Assembly (NCBI GenBank): GCA_001898645.1
Contig: MKUQ01000010.1
Coordinates: 124,001-188,000 of the forward strand
From: Burkholderiales bacterium 70-64
GTDB taxonomy: Bacteria > Pseudomonadota > Gammaproteobacteria > Burkholderiales > Burkholderiaceae_E
Length of the DNA: 64,000 nt
Reading direction: 5' to 3'
In this document: piece by piece, positions 1 through 9,867 of the stretch
How the letters are laid out: the number at the start of each line of letters is the position of its first letter
Position numbering within the stretch: the first letter of the stretch is position 1
Made by a program: the position numbers and the translations under genes
The notes under the pieces: generated by a model
Seen by the model: only the letters and a program-made list of their open reading frames with translations
Databases searched by the model: none
Told to the model about the DNA's origin: nothing

Positions 1-529
1 TGGTGACGCCGCGCGCCACGGTGCGATCGGAATGCGAGGCGCCGAGCAGCACGTATTCGATCGCCGCCGCCTCGTCGATGTCGGAGTACCCGCCATAGGC
101 CCGCGCGGCCAGCCAGCTGGTGCTGTGGAAACGCCCGTCTCCGCCGGCATGGATGCGTACGAAGCCGAGCGCGTCGTTGAGCAGCCATGCGCGCTCGCCC
201 CGGCGCAGGAAGAGCGCGAAATTGCCGCGCAGTGCGCTTTCGTCGATGCGCGCCGGCGAATCGGCCTCCTCGATCAGGCGGCGCAGCGCCTCGTTGCCGA
301 ACAGCCCGCGGTACCACAGCGGGCCCACGCAGCAGGCTGCCCCCTGCGCGGTTTCGACCAGCGTGGATCCGCCCTCCGCCTGTACGGGGTTCGACCAGGC
401 CTGCAGGCGCCCGCCCGGCCACTCGAGGGACGCCGCTGGCGCCATGCCCTGCTGCCCGAGCGAGCGGGCTGCGCGTTGGCAGCCGGCATCGTCGCTGCCG
501 GTCAGCGAGATCGAGAAGGCGTTCAGCAT
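1..529 (-). CDS. Asparagine synthetase-like protein, N-terminal part (3' end outside window)
   Basis: Partial minus-strand gene: ATG at 529, open to the window edge, 176 codons visible. The visible part resembles the glutaminase-like N-terminal fold of asparagine synthetase-like proteins (LRGNFALFLRR, LLNDALGF, YVLLGASHSDRTVARGV). It does not start Met-Cys, so the Cys2 nucleophile of a working glutamine amidotransferase is absent. In such proteins (for example beta-lactam synthetases and lasso-peptide cyclases) only the C-terminal ATP-dependent ligase half is catalytic, and that half lies outside the window. The start is 7 nt after the stop of the RES toxin gene, with no good ribosome binding site, so co-transcription with the TA pair is likely. 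Family is inferred from a partial sequence. Confidence 0.6.
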   Translation of the reverse strand, partial: MLNAFSISLTGSDDAGCQRAARSLGQQGMAPAASLEWPGGRLQAWSNPVQAEGGSTLVETAQGAACCVGPLWYRGLFGNEALRRLIEEADSPARIDESALRGNFALFLRRGERAWLLNDALGFVRIHAGGDGRFHSTSWLAARAYGGYSDIDEAAAIEYVLLGASHSDRTVARGVT

Positions 530-536
530 CGTTTGT

Positions 537-1271
537 CTATTTCTTTTGAAGCGGTAATGGACCCAACGCACTCGGAGCGAACTCCAGCCACTTGCGCCCC
601 GGAGTCCGCTGCGCGACGAAAGTATCGCGCGCCACGTTGACCCGGTAGGTGAGGAACGCCCGGTCGCGCACGTTGGACAGGCGCTCGGGCCGGAAGATGG
701 CCGCGTTGGTGCCGTCGCAGCGCGCCGATCTCGCCGCCAGGCCGTTGAGCCCCTGCTCGTGCAGATAGCTTCCCACCTGCTGCGTGTAGGCGTAGCTCGA
801 ACGGCTCACCAGGTCGGGATAGGTCTTCTCGCGGCCGCGCAGGTCGATCAGCAGCGCATCGCAGCGCACGTCGAGCACGCGCCGATCGGTCACGACCTCG
901 CGGTCTTCGTCGGGGAAGCTGTCCAGCAGGAAGGCGTACCAGTGCCAGGCGGTTTCGTACACCGTGGTCTCGATGTCCAGCGAGCCGTACCAGACCCCGT
1001 AGGTCGACCCGTCCGAGAAGCGCGTCGCCTGCCAGTGGGCCGAGTCGAACGAGTAGCTGATCACGGTGCCGTAGTCGAAGGGCCGGCGGATGGCCGCTGC
1101 CGCGGCCGGCAGGCGGCCGGAGCCTTCGGCGGCGATGGCGATCGCCCAGTCGGCCGGATCGGCCGAGAGGTCGTCGAAGAGGTCCTGCGAGGCGCGGATG
1201 CCGGGGATGTTGCGCACCAGGTCGTCGTGGAAGTCGACGTTGACCGCGAACAGGTCGGCCCTACTGTCCAC
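537..1271 (-). CDS. RES-domain toxin (NAD+-degrading type II toxin)
   Basis: 244-aa protein starting at GTG 1271, overlapping the end of the Xre antitoxin gene by 11 nt. The central part reads as a RES domain (STYGVWYGSLDIETTVYE, where family members carry the conserved Gly-Trp/Tyr and Glu). RES toxins of RES/Xre modules degrade NAD+ by phosphorolysis or hydrolysis. At 244 aa it is longer than the compact 157-aa RES protein at 14347-14820, so it belongs to a different RES subfamily. The operon order antitoxin then toxin, with overlap, is standard. The family call is good; the exact reaction is inferred. Confidence 0.8.
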   Translation of the reverse strand: MDSRADLFAVNVDFHDDLVRNIPGIRASQDLFDDLSADPADWAIAIAAEGSGRLPAAAAAIRRPFDYGTVISYSFDSAHWQATRFSDGSTYGVWYGSLDIETTVYETAWHWYAFLLDSFPDEDREVVTDRRVLDVRCDALLIDLRGREKTYPDLVSRSSYAYTQQVGSYLHEQGLNGLAARSARCDGTNAAIFRPERLSNVRDRAFLTYRVNVARDTFVAQRTPGRKWLEFAPSALGPLPLQKK

Positions 1272-1680
1272 GCTGGAAGTCCAGGTAGCGGCGCACCGCC
1301 AGCAGGCCCTCGAAGCCGCGCTCGACGATCACGTCCACGGGCCTCGTCCCCAGGCGGCGATTGGGCTGCGTCATCCAGCGATAGGCGAGATCGCGGTCGT
1401 GCGGGAAGAGCAGGCGCAGCGACTTGTGGATGCCGAGCAGGTGTCCGGCGCGGTCGAGCAGGTCGCGCGTGTCGGCGAGCGGCGCACCGCCGCGGTAGCG
1501 CGCCAGCGTGCTGCGGCTCGCGGCCGACAGCCCCAGCACCTCGGCCTGCTCCGCGGCGCTGAGCTTCCAGTGATCCAGCAGGCGGATCACCATCGCGGCG
1601 AGCCGCTCGCGCGCCTCGCGGCTGTTGGGCACAGCGACGTCGGGGGAATTCGCGGCAGCTGGTGTGGCGGCGCCTTTCAC
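1261..1680 (-). CDS. Xre/MbcA/ParS-type antitoxin partner of the RES toxin
   Basis: 139-aa antitoxin with an Xre-like helix-turn-helix in the first half (LSAAEQAEVLGLSAASRSTLARYRG, split here as LSAAEQAEVLGLSA and SRSTLARYRG) and the C-terminal toxin-binding domain typical of MbcA/ParS proteins (LFPHDRDLAYRWMTQPNRR, then GFEGLLAVRRYLD). The frame stays open to an ATG at 1785, but a sigma70-like promoter with an overlapping palindrome lies at 1701-1737. The true start must therefore be below it, and GTG 1680 is the first plausible one. It overlaps the toxin gene, so the pair is translationally coupled. Autoregulation through the palindrome is expected from the family. Confidence 0.8.
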   Translation of the reverse strand: MKGAATPAAANSPDVAVPNSREARERLAAMVIRLLDHWKLSAAEQAEVLGLSAASRSTLARYRGGAPLADTRDLLDRAGHLLGIHKSLRLLFPHDRDLAYRWMTQPNRRLGTRPVDVIVERGFEGLLAVRRYLDFQRGQ

Positions 1681-1700
1681 GGTGGTCTTGCCTATGTTTC

Positions 1701-1737
1701 TGGTACTAATAATGTACCAATGAGAACAAGGCGTCAA
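1701..1737 (-). promoter_or_regulatory. Promoter and operator of the RES/Xre operon
   Basis: On the minus strand, TTGACG (1737-1732), a 17-bp spacer and CATTAT (1714-1709) form a sigma70-like promoter. An inverted repeat, TGGTAC at 1701-1706 and GTACCA at 1714-1719 with a 7-bp AT-rich centre, overlaps the -10 box. A repressor bound there would block RNA polymerase, which fits antitoxin autoregulation. The site sits in the 175-bp gap shared with the divergent protease operon. Confidence 0.7.
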
Positions 1738-1855
1738 GCCACCCATCCATACCGTGACGATGCGCATCGGCATGGCGCGTAGCACCGTTCATCCATGTCC
1801 TCTATCCTCCCGGCCACAGGGGCCGGACGCGGATTCGTCTGGAGGAGCGAGCGAC

Positions 1856-4800
1856 ATGAAGCAGGCAGGGCTGCTGGTGAAGGTGCGTGGCGACGCTGCG
1901 CAGGTACGCATGCACATGGCGAACGCGCTCGGCGCAGACCGCGTCGAGCCGATCCTCACGGTTCCGGTGGGCGCACCGACGCCCACGACCCGCGGGCTGC
2001 GGGCTGCCGCGGATGCCACCTGGTACCGGATCGATGACGGCGGCGACGAGCATCCCTGGGATGCGGCCTACCAGGTGCTTCTGGAGCGAGGCGCCCGGTT
2101 TGCAGCCAACCCGGCGGCCGACATCGAAGCGGTCGAGCCCGACTTCGAGCAGGACTGGTTCGCGCCGTCCGAGGAACCAGGGCCAGCCATGGGCATTGCC
2201 GGGGCCTGCGTGTTCCATCCCCAGGACCGTGATGGCGGCAAGGCCGCCTCGGAGAGCGGCAATGCCTGGAATCTCCAGGATCCGTACTCGGAGCTGCGCC
2301 AGGCGCGCGCCACCCTTGGGGACGGCGACCTTCGCCGTGTGGTGATCGCGCACCTGGACACGGGTTACGACCCGGGCCACGTCACGCTGCCGGTCCACCT
2401 GGACCATGAGCGCCAGCGCAACTTCCGCGACCGGGACCGGCCCGGCGATGCGACCGACCGCACGCCCGATGGCCTGGCGGCGTTCCGCAGCCAGGGCCAC
2501 GGCACGGCCACCCTGGCACTGCTGGCCGGCAACCGCGTGCCCGACACGGCGCCGTCGTGGCCCGCCTTCGGAGACTACCTCGGCGGCGCGCCGTTCGCGA
2601 CGGTGATCCCGATCCGCATCGCGGATTGGGTGGTCCGCTTCTCCACGAGCACCATGGTGCAGGGATTCCAGCACGCGCTCGCCATGGGTGCCCATGTGCT
2701 GACCATGAGCATGGGCGGACTGACCTCGCGCGCGCTGGTGGACGCCGTCAATCTCGCCTATGACGCCGGCCTGTTCATGGTCACCGCCGCCGGCAACAAC
2801 TATGCGAAGCTGCCGACGCCGAAGTCCATCGTCTTTCCTGCGCGCTATCGCCGGGTGCTCGCGGCCTGCGGCGTCATGGCGGACGGGCGCGCCTATACGG
2901 ATCTGGACTTCCGCACCATGCAGGGCAACTACGGTCCGCACAGCAAGATGGAGACGGCCCTCGGCGGTTACACGCCCAACGTGCCGTGGGCCGAGTTCGG
3001 CTGCCGGAACATCGTGAGCATGGACGGCGCCGGAACCTCGTCGGCCACGCCGCAGATCGCGTCAGCCGCGGCGCTGTGGATCGCGACCCACTGGACCCGC
3101 CTATCGACCTACCCCGAACCGTGGATGCGCGTCGAGGCGGCCCGCATCGCGTTGTTCAGGTCGGCACTCAAGCAGACTCCCAGGATGGACCGGGAGGAGA
3201 CTTTCGAAAAAATAGGCCAAGGCGTGATGCAGGCAGCCAAGGCACTCGCCATTGCGCCGGCCACCGAAGACAGCCTGGTCCGGACCGCAGCCGCGCAGCC
3301 GAGCTGGGGCTGGCTCGATCTCATCCTCGGCAGCGGCGGCGTCAGCCTGGCGCCGGACATGCCGCCGCAGGCCGCCGACATGCTGGCGCTCGAGCTTACC
3401 CAGATGGCCCAGCGCCATGCCAAGGTCGAAGCGACGATGCCCGACGACGACGCGGGCGCAGGCCCGATATCCGGCGTCGCGCGCAGCAGGTACCTGGAGG
3501 CCGCGCTGGATGAAGGCCATCCATCCAGACCCCTGCGCGCCTTCCTCGAGCGGCAGCTAGGGCGCACGCAGGTCGTTGCGCCAGTGCCGCAGCCCGAACC
3601 CGCCGCGGCCCCGATCGCCCGCAAGGCCAAGGTGCTGCCCTCCCCGCCGCGCCGCCTCCGGGTCTATGCGCTCGATCCGTCGATCGCCAAGTCGCTGGAC
3701 TCCGTGGCGATCAACGAAACCGTCGTCCACGTGCCCTGGGAGGAAGGCTTGCTGCCGGGGCCGGTCGGCGAGTACCTCGAGGTCGTCGACGTCGATCCGG
3801 CGTCGGACCGGCTCTACGATCCGGTGGATCTCAACGAGCCCAAGCTGCTGGCGCAGGACGGCTGGCCGCCCTCCGAAGGCAATCCGCAGTTTCATCAGCA
3901 GATGGCCTACGCGGTGGCGATGAAGACCATCAAGAACTTCGAGGAGGCCCTGGGCCGCAAGGTCCTGTGGGCGCCGCGCTGGGCGCCCGTGGAGCGCAAC
4001 GGCAAGAAGGCGCTGGCGGCCTACGAAGTGCCCCGGCTGCGCATCTACCCGCATGCGCTGCGGACCGACAACGCCTACTACAGCCCCGACAAGGTCGCAC
4101 TGCTGTTCGGCTACTTCCAGGCGTCTTCGCGCCCGGACGATGCCACCCCCAACGGCTCGATGGTGTTCTCCTGCCTGTCCAGCGACATCATCGCGCACGA
4201 AATGTCGCATGCGCTGCTCGACGGACTGCACCGGCGCTTCCAGGATGCCTCGAACCCCGACGTGCCGGCCTTCCACGAGGCATTCGCCGACATCGTCGCG
4301 ATCTTCCAGCACTTCGCGATCCCGGAGCTGGTGCGCTTCCAGATCGCACGCGCGCGCGGCAGGCTGAATGCAGCCGAGCTGCTGGGCTCGCTCGCCCAGC
4401 AGTTCGGCGAGGGCACGCAGCGCGGCGGACCGCTGCGTGACTATCTGAGCGCAGAGATGGACAAGCTCAGCTACACCGACACCCTGGAGGTGCACGCGCG
4501 CGGCTCCATTCTCGTGGCCGCGGTGTACCAGGCCTTCCTCGGCATCGTCGACCGCCGGACGGCAGACCTGATCCGCATCGCGACCAACGGCTCCGGCATC
4601 CTGCCCGAGGGCGCTCTCCATCCCGACCTGGTCAACCGCCTGACCGAGGAGACCTGCAAGACCGCGAAGCACGTGCTGCGCATCTGCATCCGTGCCCTTG
4701 ACTACTGCCCTGCGGTGGACATCACGTTCGGCGAGTACCTGCGTGCGCTCATCACGGCCGACATCGACCTCGTGGCCGACGACCGCTACCACTACCGGCT

Positions 4801-5494
4801 GGCCTTCATGGACGCGTTCCGCAAGCGGGACTTGCTGCCGCGCGACGTGCGCACCGTCTCCGAGGAATCCCTGGCCTGGGGAACGCTCGCGGACCCGCGG
4901 CCCGGCTGGCTGGCGCCGCTGGTGAAGGGCCTGGACTTCGGATGGAACCGCGATCTCGACCGATCGAAGATCTTCAGGCTCAACGAGGCCAATCGGTGGA
5001 CCTTCCGGACGGCGCTGGACCGGCTGCTGCGCGACAGGCCCGAGCTTTGCGTGCAGTTCGGCCTGCTCCAGGGCGTGCCGCGGTACACGGCCGGCGGCGA
5101 GGTGCACAAGGAAGCCGAGGCAGGCCGGACCACCTTCGACGTGCCCAGCGTCCGGCCGGCCCGGCGCGTCGCGCCGGACGGCAGTCTCCACGTCGAAGTC
5201 ATCGCGACCATCCTGCAGCGCCGTCGCGTACCGCTCGATCCGAAGGTGCCGGACGGACCCCAGATCTGGTTCCGAGGCGGGACCACCCTGATCCTGGATC
5301 CTCGCGAAGACCATTGCGAGGTCCGCTATGCCATCGTGAAGAGCAGCGCCAGTGCATCGCGCCTGGAGCGGCAACGCCGGACCGCCGCCGGCCGCACGCT
5401 CTCTCCGTTGCGATCGCTGTACTTCGGGGAGGGCCACGACGAGCCCTTTGCGCTGCTGCACAGCCACAATGGAGGATTCGGCCATGCCAAGTAA
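1856..5494 (+). CDS. Dual protease: subtilisin-like (S8) domain fused to a thermolysin-like zinc metallopeptidase domain
   Basis: 1212-aa protein. Start ATG 1856 follows GGAGGAG at 1841; the frame is open further upstream but with no ribosome site. Residues about 160-450 are a subtilase: Asp168 in HLDTGYD, His215 in GHGTATLALLAGN, oxyanion Asn314 in TAAGNNY, Ser395 in GTSSATPQ. Residues about 650-1000 are a gluzincin: HEMSH (His781, Glu782, His785) with a candidate third zinc ligand Glu808 in HEAFAD. The last 200 residues match nothing I recognise. There is no signal peptide or membrane segment, so it probably acts in the cytoplasm. It overlaps the MBL gene by 11 nt. Both active sites look complete. 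A role in defence or regulated proteolysis is inference from its two-gene layout and TA neighbours. Confidence 0.85.
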   Translation: MKQAGLLVKVRGDAAQVRMHMANALGADRVEPILTVPVGAPTPTTRGLRAAADATWYRIDDGGDEHPWDAAYQVLLERGARFAANPAADIEAVEPDFEQDWFAPSEEPGPAMGIAGACVFHPQDRDGGKAASESGNAWNLQDPYSELRQARATLGDGDLRRVVIAHLDTGYDPGHVTLPVHLDHERQRNFRDRDRPGDATDRTPDGLAAFRSQGHGTATLALLAGNRVPDTAPSWPAFGDYLGGAPFATVIPIRIADWVVRFSTSTMVQGFQHALAMGAHVLTMSMGGLTSRALVDAVNLAYDAGLFMVTAAGNNYAKLPTPKSIVFPARYRRVLAACGVMADGRAYTDLDFRTMQGNYGPHSKMETALGGYTPNVPWAEFGCRNIVSMDGAGTSSATPQIASAAALWIATHWTRLSTYPEPWMRVEAARIALFRSALKQTPRMDREETFEKIGQGVMQAAKALAIAPATEDSLVRTAAAQPSWGWLDLILGSGGVSLAPDMPPQAADMLALELTQMAQRHAKVEATMPDDDAGAGPISGVARSRYLEAALDEGHPSRPLRAFLERQLGRTQVVAPVPQPEPAAAPIARKAKVLPSPPRRLRVYALDPSIAKSLDSVAINETVVHVPWEEGLLPGPVGEYLEVVDVDPASDRLYDPVDLNEPKLLAQDGWPPSEGNPQFHQQMAYAVAMKTIKNFEEALGRKVLWAPRWAPVERNGKKALAAYEVPRLRIYPHALRTDNAYYSPDKVALLFGYFQASSRPDDATPNGSMVFSCLSSDIIAHEMSHALLDGLHRRFQDASNPDVPAFHEAFADIVAIFQHFAIPELVRFQIARARGRLNAAELLGSLAQQFGEGTQRGGPLRDYLSAEMDKLSYTDTLEVHARGSILVAAVYQAFLGIVDRRTADLIRIATNGSGILPEGALHPDLVNRLTEETCKTAKHVLRICIRALDYCPAVDITFGEYLRALITADIDLVADDRYHYRLAFMDAFRKRDLLPRDVRTVSEESLAWGTLADPRPGWLAPLVKGLDFGWNRDLDRSKIFRLNEANRWTFRTALDRLLRDRPELCVQFGLLQGVPRYTAGGEVHKEAEAGRTTFDVPSVRPARRVAPDGSLHVEVIATILQRRRVPLDPKVPDGPQIWFRGGTTLILDPREDHCEVRYAIVKSSASASRLERQRRTAAGRTLSPLRSLYFGEGHDEPFALLHSHNGGFGHAK

Positions 5495-7004
5495 GCCCAC
5501 GCCTGCCGGCTTCACGGCCCGCCACTACTGCCAAGGCATCGGCGACTGCCACCTGCTGCGGTTCCCGAAAGCCGACCGCTCGCCGTTCTGGATGCTGATC
5601 GACTGCGGGGTCCACACCTCGATCTCCGGCGGTTCCGAGCTCATGGACGGCATTGTCGAAGACATCCACGCTGCGACCGGCGGACGCATCGATGTGCTCG
5701 TGCTGACCCACGAGCATGCCGACCACCTCTCGGCCTTCCTGCCATCGGCCAATCGGTTCGCGGATTTCAGGATCGGCGAGATCTGGATGGCCTGGACCGA
5801 GTCGGACGTCGACCCGCAGGCACAGGCGCTCGACAAGTTCAAGCAGCAGGCGCTCACCGCACTCGCGGACGCCAGCCAGCGCCTGAACGCGGCGCGCCAG
5901 CTGAGTCCGGGCCTGCAGGCCCTGCGCGCCGGCGTGGATGCGCTCCTGGGCTTCAGCTTCGGCGCCAAAGGCGAGAAGATCCGGGCGCTGCGCAAGGCCG
6001 CCGAGGCGCTGGCACCCGACAACATCCGGTACCGGGAACCCGGCGAGCCGCCGATCACCATCAAGGGGCTGCCGAACCTGCGCACCTACGTCCTGGCGCC
6101 GTCGCGCGACGAACGCTACCTGCGCATCACCGAAGGCAGCGGCGAGACCTACCGCATGGCCGACGATGCGGACGGCCTGCGCATGGCGCGCGCGCTGTCC
6201 TGCGCCTTTGCCGCCACCGCCGAGGGCAGCGCGCCGAACGATCCCGCCGCGCCGTTCGATCCCAGCACCGGCATCAGGCTCAGTGATTTGCGGCGTCCCG
6301 CAGCGGCGTCTTCCAGGAAGAATTCCATCGAAGCCTTCGCGCGCGACCACTACTTCGGACCGGCGATCGCGCCCGGCCCGGCCATACGCTCGCGCCGCCC
6401 GGCCAGCCCGGACACCGCCAACGAGCGCGACCAGTCGTGGCGGCGCATCGACCACGACTGGCTCGGCACGAGCGCCGACCTGGCCATGCAACTCGACAAC
6501 AAGACCAACAACACCAGCCTGGTGCTCGCCTTCGAGCTCGTCGATACCGGCCGGGTGTTCCTGTTCGCGGCGGATGCCCAGGTCGGGAACTGGCTGAGCT
6601 GGCACGATACGCGCTGGACACTCGAGAACGGCGACGTGGTCACGGGGCCGGCCCTGCTGGCGCGAACGGTCTACTACAAGGTGGGCCACCACGGCAGCCA
6701 CAACGCGACCCTGGGAAAGAAGGGGCTCGAGCTCATGGTCAGCAAAGACCTGTCGGCCTTCATTCCCACCAACGAGGACGACGCGAAGAACGTGCACTGG
6801 GGTGAGATGCCCTTCGAGGGCGTGCTCTCGGCGCTCGAGAAGCATTGCGGCAAGCGCGTCATCCGCGCCGACGCCGCATGGCTGCTTGGCGGAAAGCGGC
6901 CTTTCCGGGTCCCTTCCGGCTCCATCCGCAACCTGCGTACCGGCCCCGGCGTCGCCGAGGACGGCGATCCGCGCCGCCGCTGGGTGGAGGTGGATCTCGC
7001 GTGA
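5484..7004 (+). CDS. MBL-fold metallo-hydrolase (ComEC/Rec2-like), partner of the dual protease
   Basis: 506-aa protein. ATG 5484 follows GGAGG at 5471 and lies 11 nt inside the protease gene, so translation is coupled. The metal motif THEHADH (His76, His78, Asp80, His81) is followed by Asp364 in FAADAQ and His402-His403 in KVGHHGSHNAT, the layout of ComEC-like metallo-beta-lactamase hydrolases. There is a long insert (about residues 110-330) between motifs and no signal peptide. Family members cleave phosphodiesters or related bonds; the substrate here is unknown. The pairing suggests the protease and the hydrolase work together, for example one activating or releasing the other, but that is inference. 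Confidence 0.85.
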   Translation: MPSKPTPAGFTARHYCQGIGDCHLLRFPKADRSPFWMLIDCGVHTSISGGSELMDGIVEDIHAATGGRIDVLVLTHEHADHLSAFLPSANRFADFRIGEIWMAWTESDVDPQAQALDKFKQQALTALADASQRLNAARQLSPGLQALRAGVDALLGFSFGAKGEKIRALRKAAEALAPDNIRYREPGEPPITIKGLPNLRTYVLAPSRDERYLRITEGSGETYRMADDADGLRMARALSCAFAATAEGSAPNDPAAPFDPSTGIRLSDLRRPAAASSRKNSIEAFARDHYFGPAIAPGPAIRSRRPASPDTANERDQSWRRIDHDWLGTSADLAMQLDNKTNNTSLVLAFELVDTGRVFLFAADAQVGNWLSWHDTRWTLENGDVVTGPALLARTVYYKVGHHGSHNATLGKKGLELMVSKDLSAFIPTNEDDAKNVHWGEMPFEGVLSALEKHCGKRVIRADAAWLLGGKRPFRVPSGSIRNLRTGPGVAEDGDPRRRWVEVDLA

Positions 7005-7041
7005 GTCGTGCGCCGGGGTCTGGACACCATGGCGTCTAGAC

Positions 7042-7335
7042 TCACGGCCATTGCCGCGCCACATGCTTCACCCGCAGGATTTCCACGATCCGTACGTCGG
7101 CGCGCAACCGATGGAAGATGATGTAGTTCGGATGCACGACCAGCTCCCTGGTATGCGCTACCCGGCCCGGCGGCCCGATCTCCGGATACTGCCGGAGCGG
7201 TTCGACCCTCGCGCGCAGCTTCTGCGCGAAGTTGCGGGCCGCGGCCGGACTGTCGTTGCCGATATGGCGGACGATCGCTCGCAGGTCTTCGACCGCCTTG
7301 GGGCGCCATTCGATGCGCCAGCCCCGGGGCGTCAC
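7042..7335 (-). CDS. ParE/RelE-superfamily toxin
   Basis: 97-aa protein with the ParE/RelE fold signature: N-terminal WRPKAVEDLRAIVRHIGND, mid motif YPEIGPPGR and the C-terminal strands YIIFHRLRADVRIVEILRVKH. ParE toxins inhibit gyrase and RelE relatives cleave mRNA; the PEIG..GR pattern and the RELVV..YIIFHR stretch favour ParE. Its start overlaps the stop of the upstream gene by four bases, as in standard antitoxin-toxin operons. It converges on the MBL gene with a 37-bp gap. Confidence 0.85.
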   Translation of the reverse strand: MTPRGWRIEWRPKAVEDLRAIVRHIGNDSPAAARNFAQKLRARVEPLRQYPEIGPPGRVAHTRELVVHPNYIIFHRLRADVRIVEILRVKHVARQWP

Positions 7336-7802
7336 GTACCTGCCCTGGAGCGCTTCCGATGCGGTCGGGTTGCAGGCAATGCAGCGATCTCGGCGTCCAT
7401 GCCGGCCATGACCTCTTCGTGCGGGATACTCGGCCTCGCATCATCGACGGCCCCCTGGATCTCGGCAATCAGCCATCGGTTGTAGGCTGCAGCCCGATGG
7501 GCCTCGCGCATGGATTCCGCGCGCCCCCGGTTGCCCGGCTCCCGGATCCTCTCCTTCGGATCCCATGCGCTTGCATCGAAACGGCCGGTCGAAATGCCGA
7601 TGCCGCGCAACGTGTTCAAGGCTGCCGCGAGGTTGCCGAAGCGGCGGGGCTCGTGGCTGCGCGCCCTGCACAGCACGGCGCCCGAACCGCTGCGAGTCAC
7701 GACTTCCACGAGGAACGCGCCACCTTGCGCCTTGAGGGTGACGTCTGCCACCCCACCCGCTTCGCTCGCCGTGCGCAGTTGCTCCAGGGTCATATGCTGC
7801 AT
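7332..7802 (-). CDS. Probable antitoxin partner of the ParE-type toxin (unrecognised family)
   Basis: 156-aa protein. ATG 7802 is preceded by AGGA at good spacing; a TTG 21 nt upstream is also possible. I do not recognise the family. The N-terminal half (VTLKAQGGAFLVEVVTRSGS, RSHEPRRFGNLAAALNTLRG) reads as a small beta-rich domain ending in a helix. The C-terminal half is charged and helical (AESMREAHRAAAYNRWL, then IPHEEVMAGMDAEIAAL), like the toxin-wrapping tail of ParD or StbD proteins. It is about twice the length of ParD. The call rests on its position: it overlaps the toxin start by four bases. Confidence 0.6.
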   Translation of the reverse strand: MQHMTLEQLRTASEAGGVADVTLKAQGGAFLVEVVTRSGSGAVLCRARSHEPRRFGNLAAALNTLRGIGISTGRFDASAWDPKERIREPGNRGRAESMREAHRAAAYNRWLIAEIQGAVDDARPSIPHEEVMAGMDAEIAALPATRPHRKRSRAGT

Positions 7803-7900
7803 GGAGGGGTCCTGAAATGGCAACGTGGAAGAGCTACGTCAATTGTGCATGCCTCCTTGAAAAGGTACAACTCACGAGTCGTGGACAAAGGAGTCCATAT

Positions 7901-7922
7901 GGCATATGCTTAAACATATGCC
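7901..7922. promoter_or_regulatory. Palindromic operator upstream of vapB
   Basis: Perfect inverted repeat GGCATATG (7901-7908) and CATATGCC (7915-7922) with a 6-bp centre; a third CATATG lies at 7896-7901. Its position just before vapB and its AbrB-operator-like AT-rich arms fit autoregulation by the VapBC complex. A four-codon ORF (ATG 7899 to TAA 7911), with a strong AAAGGAG site at 7887, runs through it. Confidence 0.6.
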
Positions 7923-7935
7923 TGATGAGAGCACG

Positions 7936-8169
7936 ATGTTTCCCGAACGACACGTCAAGCTTTTCAAGAACGGCCGGAACCAGGCCGTGCGGATCCCGCG
8001 CGAATTCGAGCTTCCAGGCGAGGACGCAATCATGCGCAAGGAAGGCGAGCGGCTGGTCATCGAACCCGCGCCCCCCAAATCACTGCTGGCCTTGCTGGCG
8101 ACCTTGATGCCGATCGACGAAGAGTTTCCGCCGATCCCCGATCCGCATCCGGAATCCGTCGAGCTTTGA
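7936..8169 (+). CDS. vapB: VapB antitoxin (AbrB/SpoVT fold)
   Basis: 77-aa protein with the VapB N-terminal swapped-hairpin DNA-binding motif (HVKLFKNGRNQAVRIPREFEL), given here as VKLFKNGRNQAVRIP, and an acidic tail (PIDEEFPPIPDPHPESVEL) that would occupy the VapC active site. ATG 7936 is chosen because in-frame ATGs at 7906 and 7918 lie inside the palindromic operator; they would add 10 or 6 residues. It overlaps vapC by one base (TGATG). It neutralises VapC and represses the operon, by family. Confidence 0.85.
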   Translation: MFPERHVKLFKNGRNQAVRIPREFELPGEDAIMRKEGERLVIEPAPPKSLLALLATLMPIDEEFPPIPDPHPESVEL

Positions 8170-8573
8170 TGCGCTACCTGCTCGACACCAATATCGTCTC
8201 CGATCTCGTCCGCCGCCCGCAGGGCCGCATTGCGGAACATGTCCGCAAGGTCGGTGAGGCGCAAGTCTGCACCAGCATCATCGTCGCTGCCGAATTGCGC
8301 TACGGAGCAGCGAAGAAAGGGTCGCAGCGCCTCGCAGCACAGCTCGAAGCCGTGCTCGGCGCACTCGACGTCCTCCCGCTCGAGGCACCCGCCGATGCTG
8401 CGTATGGCCTGATCCGTACCCGGCTCGAGCAAGCCGGCACGCCGATCGGCGCCAACGATTTGCTCATCGCCGCTCAAGCGCTCGCCCTCGGCTGCACCCT
8501 CGTCACCGACAACGAAGCGGAGTTCGCTCGCATCGACGGCCTGCCACGCGAGAACTGGCTGAGGCAGGCGTGA
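8169..8573 (+). CDS. vapC: VapC toxin, PIN-domain ribonuclease
   Basis: 134-aa PIN-domain protein. The acidic residues expected at the metal site are visible: Asp in YLLDTNIVSD, Glu in VAAELRYG, Asp in IGANDLLIAA and Asp in LVTDNEAEF. VapC toxins cleave tRNA or rRNA in a Mg-dependent manner. ATG 8169 overlaps the vapB stop by one base; a TTG three bases earlier is possible. Length is standard. It converges on the glycosyltransferase gene with a 28-bp gap. Confidence 0.9.
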   Translation: MRYLLDTNIVSDLVRRPQGRIAEHVRKVGEAQVCTSIIVAAELRYGAAKKGSQRLAAQLEAVLGALDVLPLEAPADAAYGLIRTRLEQAGTPIGANDLLIAAQALALGCTLVTDNEAEFARIDGLPRENWLRQA

Positions 8574-8601
8574 AATCTTTCGAACGCGCCGCCCTGCGCC
8601 T

Positions 8602-9867
8602 TCACGGCGCCCGACCGAGCACCCGCTCGTAGACTCCCCGGTAGCGCTGCACCGACGCCCGCCAGTTGCGCTCGCGCTCGACGAAGGCGCGCCCGGCGGC
8701 CACCACCGCTTCGAGCGCATCGGACGCCGACAGCGCCTCGATCGCGCAGCGCGCGAGGTCGGCCACGTCGTCGTGGCGGAAGAGAAAGCCGGTCTTGCCG
8801 TGCTCGATGAGCTCACGGTGCCCGCCCACATCGGAGGCCAGCACCACCCTGCCCTGCGCCATCGCCTCGAGCGGCTTGAGCGGGGTGACGAGCTCCGTGA
8901 GCCGCATCGACTTGCGCGGGAACACGAAGGCGTCGACCAGCGAGGAGTACGCCGGCACCTGGCCGTGCGGCACGCGGCCGGTGAAGATCACCCGCTCGGC
9001 CAGGCCCAGGCGCTGCGTCTGCGCCTTCAGCGCCGCCTCCTGCGGCCCGCCGCCGACCAGCAGGAGGCGCGCGTTCGGCACGCGCGCGAGCACGGCCGGC
9101 ACAGCCTCGAGCAGCAGGTCGAGCCCCTCGTAGGCATAGAACGAACCGATGAAGCCGAGCACGCGCGCCTCGCGCAGGCCGAGCCGTGCCTCGAGCTCGG
9201 CATCGCGCGCGCCCAGCAGGGGGAACTGCGCGATGTCGACCGCGTTGGGGATCACGGTGATACGCCCGGCGTCCACGCCGCGCGCGGCGATGTCGCGGCG
9301 CAGCCCTTCGCAGATGCAGGTGACCTGGTCGGCGCGGCGCAGCACCCAGGTCTCGAGCGCGCGCGTGAGCCGGTAGCGCGGGCCGTTCTCCGAGGCGGTG
9401 CCGTGGTCCACCGCGGCGTCCTCCCAGAAGGCGCGCACCTCGTAGACCACGGGGATGCCCAGCGCCCTGCCCGCGCGCAGCGCAGCCAGCCCGTTCAGGC
9501 AGGGCGAATGGGCGTGGATGAGGTCGGCGCGCTCGCTGCGCGCAACGTCGCGGATACGCGGGGCGAGCGTGCGCACCACGTCCCACTGCTCGAGGACGGG
9601 CAGCGCGGCGAGCGCACCGGGGTGGGTGCGATGGAAGACCAGCCCGTCGACCGTCTCGGCGAGCGCGGCGGCGCCGTTCCGTGCGCCCGCCGCGGGCTCG
9701 CCCCGGGCCGCCGCGCCCGGCACCGCCCCGGCGGCGTGCTTGGACGAGGTGAGGTGCACCGTTTCCCAGCCCAGCTCGCGCTGGGTAGTCACGATCGCGC
9801 GCGAGCGGAAGGTGTAGCCGCTGTGCAGCGGGATCGAGTGGTCGAAGACGTGCAGGATGCGGGTCAT
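8602..9867 (-). CDS. XrtA/PEP-CTERM-type glycosyltransferase (Daro_2409-like)
   Basis: 421-aa GT4-type glycosyltransferase with a GT-B fold. The start ILHVFDHSIPLHSGYTFRSR is the hallmark of the Daro_2409 family found in exosortase A loci. The donor-binding part carries GFIGSFYAYEGLDLLLEAV and the C-terminal EAMAQGRVVLASDVGGHRE. It transfers an activated sugar during extracellular polysaccharide assembly at the cytoplasmic side of the membrane. It overlaps the upstream glycosyltransferase gene by four bases (ATGA), so the two are co-translated. Confidence 0.85.
   Translation of the reverse strand: MTRILHVFDHSIPLHSGYTFRSRAIVTTQRELGWETVHLTSSKHAAGAVPGAAARGEPAAGARNGAAALAETVDGLVFHRTHPGALAALPVLEQWDVVRTLAPRIRDVARSERADLIHAHSPCLNGLAALRAGRALGIPVVYEVRAFWEDAAVDHGTASENGPRYRLTRALETWVLRRADQVTCICEGLRRDIAARGVDAGRITVIPNAVDIAQFPLLGARDAELEARLGLREARVLGFIGSFYAYEGLDLLLEAVPAVLARVPNARLLLVGGGPQEAALKAQTQRLGLAERVIFTGRVPHGQVPAYSSLVDAFVFPRKSMRLTELVTPLKPLEAMAQGRVVLASDVGGHRELIEHGKTGFLFRHDDVADLARCAIEALSASDALEAVVAAGRAFVERERNWRASVQRYRGVYERVLGRAP

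Follow-up and report, generated by a model that had tools for sequence, protein, structure and literature searches.

A metalloprotease core with a metallo-β-lactamase partner and swappable hydrolases: a probable bacterial conflict module

In Burkholderiales bacterium 70-64, a stretch of 64,000 nucleotides (contig MKUQ01000010.1, positions 124,001 to 188,000; in the following the window) contains two overlapping genes, A and B, which encode an apparently intracellular protein with two unrelated protease domains and a hydrolase of the metallo-β-lactamase (MBL) fold with resemblance to immune enzymes that cut DNA. Judged by sequence comparison, the constant unit of this system is the gluzincin-like core of A, usually together with the MBL gene, and the subtilase of A is a replaceable module. 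The unit is real and conserved, and its distinct metalloprotease hub with swappable executioners, which is probably that of a conflict system, sets it apart from the known protease-MBL pairs. The gene pair and the swappable hydrolases suggest a little-described self-destruct or anti-virus module of bacteria, and on balance it is somewhat favoured that A-B belongs to a modular intracellular conflict system, probably with an antiphage or suicide function.

The conserved core and the MBL gene

Relatives of A were collected in a scan of species-representative genomes, which gave 272 relatives, the best 80 of which were kept, and because the query contained the S8 domain this set is biased to S8 forms. 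The alignment of A with 84 proteins of its type (85 rows) shows two blocks, the S8 domain in 66 rows and the residues from about 595 to 1202 in nearly all. A preliminary description of this DNA had read a full subtilase set (Asp168, His215, Asn314, Ser395) and a full gluzincin set (HEMSH and Glu808) from the sequence, and both are in place: the former is intact in all 66 rows that have the S8 domain (the window and 65 relatives), and the HExxH motif with its glutamate in 84 of the 85 rows, with the one exception of L061, which loses the core part-way (L and G numbers label loci and genomes; L028 and L118 are one contig, L043 and L119 come from the same genome). In L068 and L078 the S8 columns are filled by an unrelated lipase-like domain, and 17 further rows have gaps there. 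The chain with two unrelated catalytic mechanisms, which that description had put in the centre, is thus real and no chance occurrence in both of its catalytic sets, but the dual active site was rejected as the conserved essence, since the core is kept while the S8 partner is exchanged across relatives.

The MBL gene adjoins the core downstream and on the same strand in 62 of the 73 loci that have room for it (of 79 loci examined, contig ends cut 6, and L049, a near-duplicate, had been dropped beforehand), with a median estimated gap of 44.5 nucleotides (nt). Loci with more distant cores also tend to have more distant MBL proteins (Mantel r 0.675 over 48 loci, a value reached in 0 of 2000 permutations), a correlation to which shared species history may contribute. 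The expectation that the two genes travel together is therefore borne out, an exception being a clade of 14 subtilase-core rows, on one side of a branch of the core tree, that has no MBL gene in view and in which L042, L050 and L059 are cut by contig ends. In the window, the genes overlap by 11 nt (5484-5494), as had been described, and by reading, GGAGG-type ribosome sites precede the start codons of both.

With its HExxH motif, downstream glutamate and thermolysin-type fold the core is assigned to the M4-like gluzincins, the fold being given by a single PDB match above noise. Modelled alone (pLDDT 91.4, pTM 0.93), the core had in a Foldseek search against PDB one meaningful match, the vibriolysin MCP-02 (3nqz, probability 1.00, E 2.1e-3), and the remaining matches listed had E values of at least 0.12 and probabilities of at most 0.35. 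Several of the latter are CaMKII-hub or NTF2-like folds, to which the SnoaL-like Aln2 can be added, and these may describe the C-terminal strands of the core model. For the C-terminal half of A there was no Pfam match up to E 1, neither Pfam nor NCBIfam gave a match to the curated M4 family for A, and the PDB profile search returned nothing significant (two fucosidases with E 0.18 and 0.37, the neutral protease 1npc with E 0.99). The core thus shares fold and HExxH...E residues with the M4 peptidases vibriolysin and thermolysin, but it differs from them by the missing Pfam match, the absence of a signal peptide, the extra C-terminal domain, and by being encoded together with partner hydrolases. 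More divergent core relatives (L104-L111, L127-L135, L147-L154) are open frames of about 250-700 amino acids (aa), and those of L104-L111 are a mix of secreted-looking and cytosolic-looking M4-like proteins.

B is named Lactamase_B by Pfam (E 4.1e-6) and has the HxHxDH, Asp and GHHGS ligands of ComEC-like MBL proteins, the last of these being a motif that we take to be linked to ComEC. Its earlier assignment as a ComEC-like MBL protein with intact metal ligands can be kept: all 64 rows keep H78, D80 and H81, 63 keep H76, and 62 keep D364 and H402/H403, the two remaining rows being gaps. Between the metal motifs lie two weakly conserved stretches, at about 111-185 and 208-318, and in the 62 rows the length of the segment 207-319 ranges from 70 to 129 residues. 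The nearest PADLOC model is LmuA (E 3.6e-10), and the matches of B to the LmuA, RTasMBL, Avs1a and 6A-MBL models are weak and below the curated cut-offs where such exist.

Table 1. Features of the A-B locus and its flanks in window positions; gene limits are those of the open reading frames (ORFs)
Feature	Position	Strand	Description or basis
Gene A	1856-5494	+	1212 aa: propeptide-like N-terminus, S8 subtilase, helical linker, M4-like gluzincin core, C-terminal domain
Putative I9-type propeptide-like region, A 1-97	1856-2146	+	beta-alpha-beta-beta-alpha-beta by reading, ends with IEAVEPD
S8 subtilase domain, A 161-437	2336-3166	+	Asp168, His215, Asn314, Ser395
Conserved core, A 595-1202 (about 610 aa)	3638-5461	+	M4-like gluzincin and C-terminal domain (weakly NTF2-like)
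HEMSH zinc motif, A 781-785	4196-4210	+	sequence and alignment
Glu808, expected third zinc ligand	4277-4279	+	sequence and alignment
Gene B	5484-7004	+	506 aa, ComEC-like MBL hydrolase
HEHADH metal ligands, B 76-81 (H76-E-H78-A-D80-H81)	5709-5726	+	alignment
Weakly conserved insert, B 208-318	6105-6437	+	between MBL motifs; candidate gating insert
His402-His403, motif GHHGS of B	6687-6692	+	alignment
RES toxin (537-1271) and Xre/MbcA antitoxin (1261-1785)	537-1785	-	left flank, divergent from A
ParE-like toxin (7042-7335) and RelB/PaaA2-like partner (7332-7823)	7042-7823	-	right flank
MazE-like antitoxin (7906-8169) and PIN-domain toxin (8166-8573)	7906-8573	+	right flank

Exchange of the partner hydrolases and spread of the unit

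In the window the hydrolase fused to the core is the subtilase, the only domain of A that was named in the recommended HMM search (Pfam Peptidase_S8, E 1.3e-21), and with triad, oxyanion asparagine and subtilisin fold it is a member of that family. The predicted model of A from residue 13 to 1212 has a pLDDT of 88.0 and a pTM of 0.59, and because the latter is so low, the placement of the domains within A is not predicted. Its best Foldseek matches are subtilisins (e.g. 1bh6), and among the matches is unprocessed pro-subtilisin E (3whi, TMt 0.77, target of 355 residues), which is in keeping with a propeptide at the N-terminus of A, a region modelled with low-to-medium confidence (mean pLDDT 48-81 per block of ten residues, starting at residue 13). 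A shares fold, catalytic residues and perhaps the propeptide, to judge by its N-terminus, with these S8 subtilisins, but it differs from them by the missing signal peptide and by the fusion to a metalloprotease core.

Other hydrolases, either encoded as neighbours of the core or joined to it at the end that carries the subtilase in the window, are found both in loci with and in loci without the S8 block. Together with the subtilase, these partners comprise patatins, Tle1-like and LCAT-like lipases, amidase-caspase proteins and an M43 peptidase, and Pfam names patatin, Tle1-like, Lipase_3 and M43 among them. A patatin is directly beside the unit in 13 loci (L039, L043, L073, L079, L084, L087, L094, L097, L120, L116, L160, L165, L166; in L116 it lies downstream and the core is broken), L209 also has one, and in L211 it is divergent. 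A Tle1-like DUF2235 gene is close to the core in L089, L096 and L164, in the last case by homology to the other two and not by Pfam. An LCAT/DUF676-like domain is fused to the core in L068 (by Pfam, with LCAT just below and DUF676 just above the cut-off) and in its homologue L078, a Lipase_3 gene lies upstream of L042, and an M43 gene lies upstream of L122 with one small gene between. Caspase C14 is named by Pfam in three loci, as part of an Amidase_2-caspase gene upstream of the core in L161 and L162 and alone in the upstream gene of L163, which yet is 51% identical to that of L161. L121, from the genus of the window, has a homologue that is 48% identical (PADLOC caspase E 1.9e-17, NCBIfam caspase below the cut-off), and the lack of an MBL gene in view there may be due to the contig end that cuts this locus. 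In L121 (2409-5354, minus strand) as in L161-L163, an amidase-like N-terminus and a C-terminal caspase are encoded directly before the M4-like core, and the middle of the L121 protein is, by reading only, perhaps an alpha/beta hydrolase. Single S8 loci have further genes upstream, a PLD-like gene in L091 and a cell-wall hydrolase in L013, L088 and L092.

The same picture is obtained in the less biased sample of the window's order, where 19 of 399 genomes have a core match and 11 have one above 300 bits. A partner hydrolase is present in 10 of these 11 strong loci, namely S8 in G000, S8 and patatin in G045, patatin in G999, G1017 and G972, amidase-caspase in G838, G897 and G1043, M43 in G058 and a Tle1-like protein in G910, the eleventh (G911) being cut by a contig end, and an MBL gene is present in 7. 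The six matching near relatives have S8 with MBL, patatin with S8 and MBL, patatin with MBL, amidase-caspase, M43, and a core-MBL fragment at a contig end. On the core tree (FastTree, 92 rows, local supports; manual thinning removed 16 near-copies or repeats, a few such as L027/L090 remain, and L116 was too short), the partner labels, which were set by hand, need 20 changes, the least possible number being 9. For the label patatin with MBL alone the number is 7, of which the starred branches support at least 5.

The spread of the unit is patchy, with a match in 6 of 61 close relatives and a core match above 300 bits in 6 of 398 genomes of the phylum and 3 of 385 genomes of one class. The core of the window groups with those of Kaistia and a Rhodobacterales metagenome-assembled genome (local support 99), its nearest core relatives thus being alphaproteobacterial, and as the order of the window is betaproteobacterial, a transfer of the unit between classes is likely on the evidence of the tree. 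An MBL relative is carried by 34 plasmid records. A phage-borne gene was considered and rejected, as only 2 of 50,697 phage records match, and a scan of viral contigs that was limited to two peptide patterns brought no confirmed relative.

As the preliminary description had noted, toxin-antitoxin (TA) modules flank A-B on both sides (Table 1), and the Pfam match of the MazE-like antitoxin is just under its cut-off. The stretch from about 340 to 8615 of the window (about 8.3 kb with A, B and the three TA pairs) is bounded by a left-hand gene and a glycosyltransferase-like gene, and it corresponds to only about 1.3 kb in the relatives G016 and G017 (L195, L196), which is why it is regarded as an accessory stretch and likely an insertion; the equivalent in G007 and G015 is less clear.

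A role in conflict and its alternatives

How such a unit might act can be outlined as a model. The constant unit would be the M4-like metalloprotease core with its extra C-terminal domain, usually with an MBL protein that resembles the gated Avs1, Hachiman and Lamassu pro-nucleases, and the variable unit would be an executioner hydrolase fused to the core or encoded beside it, which in the variant of the window may be a subtilase kept as a zymogen by the I9-like propeptide. An infection or damage cue would engage the core, proteolysis would then free the executioner and would also cut the variable inserts that may cover the active site of B, and the degradation of protein and DNA would kill or arrest the cell. 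The two weakly conserved stretches of B, its weak matches to models of defence MBL proteins and the precedent of gated MBL proteins together lead to the proposal that proteolysis by A opens B. We infer in this model the zymogen control, the nuclease activity of B, the assignment of each cut to one of the proteases, the trigger, the substrates and the outcome. In its strongest form, which is tentative and has the balance slightly against it, the unit would be an undescribed immune or suicide class, in which an intracellular M4-type switch cleaves and thereby arms both an MBL pro-nuclease and a set of latent executioners that can be exchanged (subtilase, caspase-amidase, phospholipases), so that the chemistry changes and the switch stays. 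If true, this would extend the known immune systems armed by proteases with a metalloprotease hub, it would bring proteases, lipases and wall hydrolases together with a likely nuclease in a single framework of exchangeable parts, found here in several phyla, and one could ask whether a single conserved protease switches on chemically unrelated executioners.

The idea of a defence or programmed-cleavage system finds support in the conflict-like patchy spread, the effector swapping and some defence neighbours, but the two-protease chain on which it had been built is not central. Proximity to defence genes on plasmids is suggestive. In L209, a patatin-core-MBL unit lies between a CBASS cyclase gene and DUF1837/DEAD-helicase (Hachiman) genes, with HamA and the cyclase confirmed by PADLOC and genes of the DarT family and with macro domains further up; SIR2 genes are near L089, Hachiman is beside L094 and CBASS near L097. 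The expectation of nearby defence genes thus holds for some neighbours on few plasmids, but the neighbour families among those listed are largely of other kinds.

Several observations weigh against a conflict role or against a uniform unit. A strictly named defence gene is found within about 9 kb in 4 of the 13 annotated plasmid loci (L089, L094, L097, L209) versus 1 of 9 control stretches, a difference that is not significant, and the units of L094, L097 and L209 are closely related, the L209 core being 94% and 85% identical to those of L094 and L097. The controls were taken from nine of these plasmids, opposite to the unit (the plasmid loci L091 and L207 are unannotated and outside the 13); the one with a defence gene is L199 (Shedu), and two others have TA pairs. 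In a survey of the closest two genes to the left and to the right of 77 loci (256 proteins of at most 1250 aa, PADLOC on the second batch of 126; the genes are greedy ORFs, some of them spurious), most of the Pfam families among those listed (25 of 120 and 25 of 123) have no link to defence, the exceptions including SIR2_2, HamA, ThiF, ABC-3C CTD3 and an AbiEii-like AAA_21. Only patatin often recurs among them, in 7 of 126 proteins of one batch, where that of L095 does not adjoin the unit; the patatin of L039 is in the other batch, below its best 25. Each of the nine Mesorhizobium-type loci with a P450 gene (L010, L012, L017, L019, L020, L023, L028, L117 and L118) has it 1.2-1.35 kb upstream, and this near-constant distance suggests that its position in those loci is stable. 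In Pfam, PADLOC and NCBIfam scans neither A nor B was found fused to a sensor, for instance a STAND ATPase or a helicase, and the core was unmatched by PADLOC and NCBIfam models in the proteins scanned (A of the window and the cores of L209 and L161). The MBL gene is missing in 11 of the 73 testable loci and likewise in the M43 locus and the three amidase-caspase loci, which have room for it, and 17 of the 92 rows of the core tree have no recognised partner, at least three of these (L006, L081, L139) being cut upstream by a contig end.

Some further genes were seen next to these loci. The protein encoded upstream in the Mesorhizobium-type loci has about 1400 aa, and its L028 copy matches P450 and, weakly, Dyp peroxidase. 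On two Hymenobacter plasmids an AAA/SMC-like ATPase gene is directly upstream of core and MBL (L093, 6604-8973; L208, 6571-8964) and perhaps encodes a sensor. Genes for an ATP-binding protein and an S8 peptidase lie side by side next to Shedu in L199 (16279-19885) and near ThiF in L210 (1-3431), as a different protease pair near conflict-type genes.

What else the unit could be has to be judged by the same data. Secreted nutritional proteases were rejected, as there is no sign of secretion: in agreement with the preliminary description, A lacks a signal peptide (the maximum 17-residue Kyte-Doolittle value in the first 60 aa is 0.82, and 0.72 for B), and nearly all core ORFs likewise have no signal-like N-terminus. 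The same result bears on an interbacterial or envelope toxin system, in which the partners (Tle1-like, patatin, amidase, GH25) would be exported antibacterials and the core a processing or chaperone protease. The partner types match known type VI effector classes, Pfam names T6SS_Tle1-like_cat and Amidase_2 among them, and cell-wall hydrolases are encoded upstream of three single S8 loci, but neither A nor B has a hydrophobic N-terminus, a Kyte-Doolittle value of 1.6 is reached in the first 80 aa by only 2 of 109 core ORFs (3 of 13 patatins), and export would give the MBL protein and the core no obvious role, so that this explanation is quite unlikely, although genes for VgrG, PAAR or immunity proteins may be present.

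A housekeeping or stress unit for proteolysis or lipid turnover without any conflict role would agree with the mostly non-defence neighbour families and with the P450 gene at its near-constant distance, yet the patchy occurrence, the effector swapping, the carriage on plasmids and the alphaproteobacterial affinity of the core in the window all argue against it, and it is considered unlikely. Very improbable is the maturation of a ribosomally synthesized and post-translationally modified peptide, in which subtilase and metalloprotease would trim a precursor that the MBL protein modifies or degrades: the matches to mycosin and PatA/PatG subtilases that point in this direction are far below the curated cut-offs, lipases and a caspase replace the subtilase, and in a clustering of ORFs of at least 80 aa, which a very short precursor would escape, short genes recur at most within a few related neighbourhoods.

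Relation to known protease-MBL systems

An antiviral MBL nuclease that two inserts keep inactive until a partner trypsin or caspase releases it has been described (PMC12799240; here and below according to its main text). Trypsin-MBL pairs of this kind occur in Hachiman (HamMAB), AVAST type 1, Lamassu and DRT, where the trypsin-like protease is fused to HamA, Avs or LmuA, the MBL gene lies upstream, and the MBL inserts are disordered, block the active site and have conserved cut sites (PMC12799240). In A-B, too, an MBL hydrolase of ComEC-like type is combined with a protease that is fused to a further domain, and A-B shares with these pairs the co-divergence, the transfer, the occasional proximity to defence genes and, with its weakly conserved stretches as candidates, inserts between the MBL motifs. 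Unlike in those pairs, the protease of A is S8 and/or M4-like and not trypsin-like, the MBL gene is downstream of the protease gene, and the partner can be a lipase; no trypsin-like, HamA, STAND, LmuA or reverse transcriptase part was matched in A.

Canu consists of the gene of a caspase with an Ig-like fold, of CanB and of the nuclease CanC (PMC12799240). As in A-B, the protease gene comes first and the MBL gene follows downstream, and a caspase is also present in a minority of the core loci. Unlike Canu, the caspase loci with room lack the MBL gene and carry the M4-like core, and in two of them Pfam names Amidase_2; no caspase was matched in the pair of the window, and Pfam named no Ig-like or CanB part in the caspase loci scanned.

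By title and abstract, the open-access literature of PubMed Central (preprints lie outside its scope) holds no description of the unit. PMC12419801 and PMC7159879, in the parts available, concern other systems than A-B. In the main text of PMC12799240 the words subtilisin, subtilase, gluzincin, metalloprotease, metallopeptidase, patatin and lipase are all absent, and the trees of that paper may already hold part of the unit. By analogy, the closest tested precedent for A-B is the protease-gated MBL pro-nuclease of those antiviral systems (PMC12799240).

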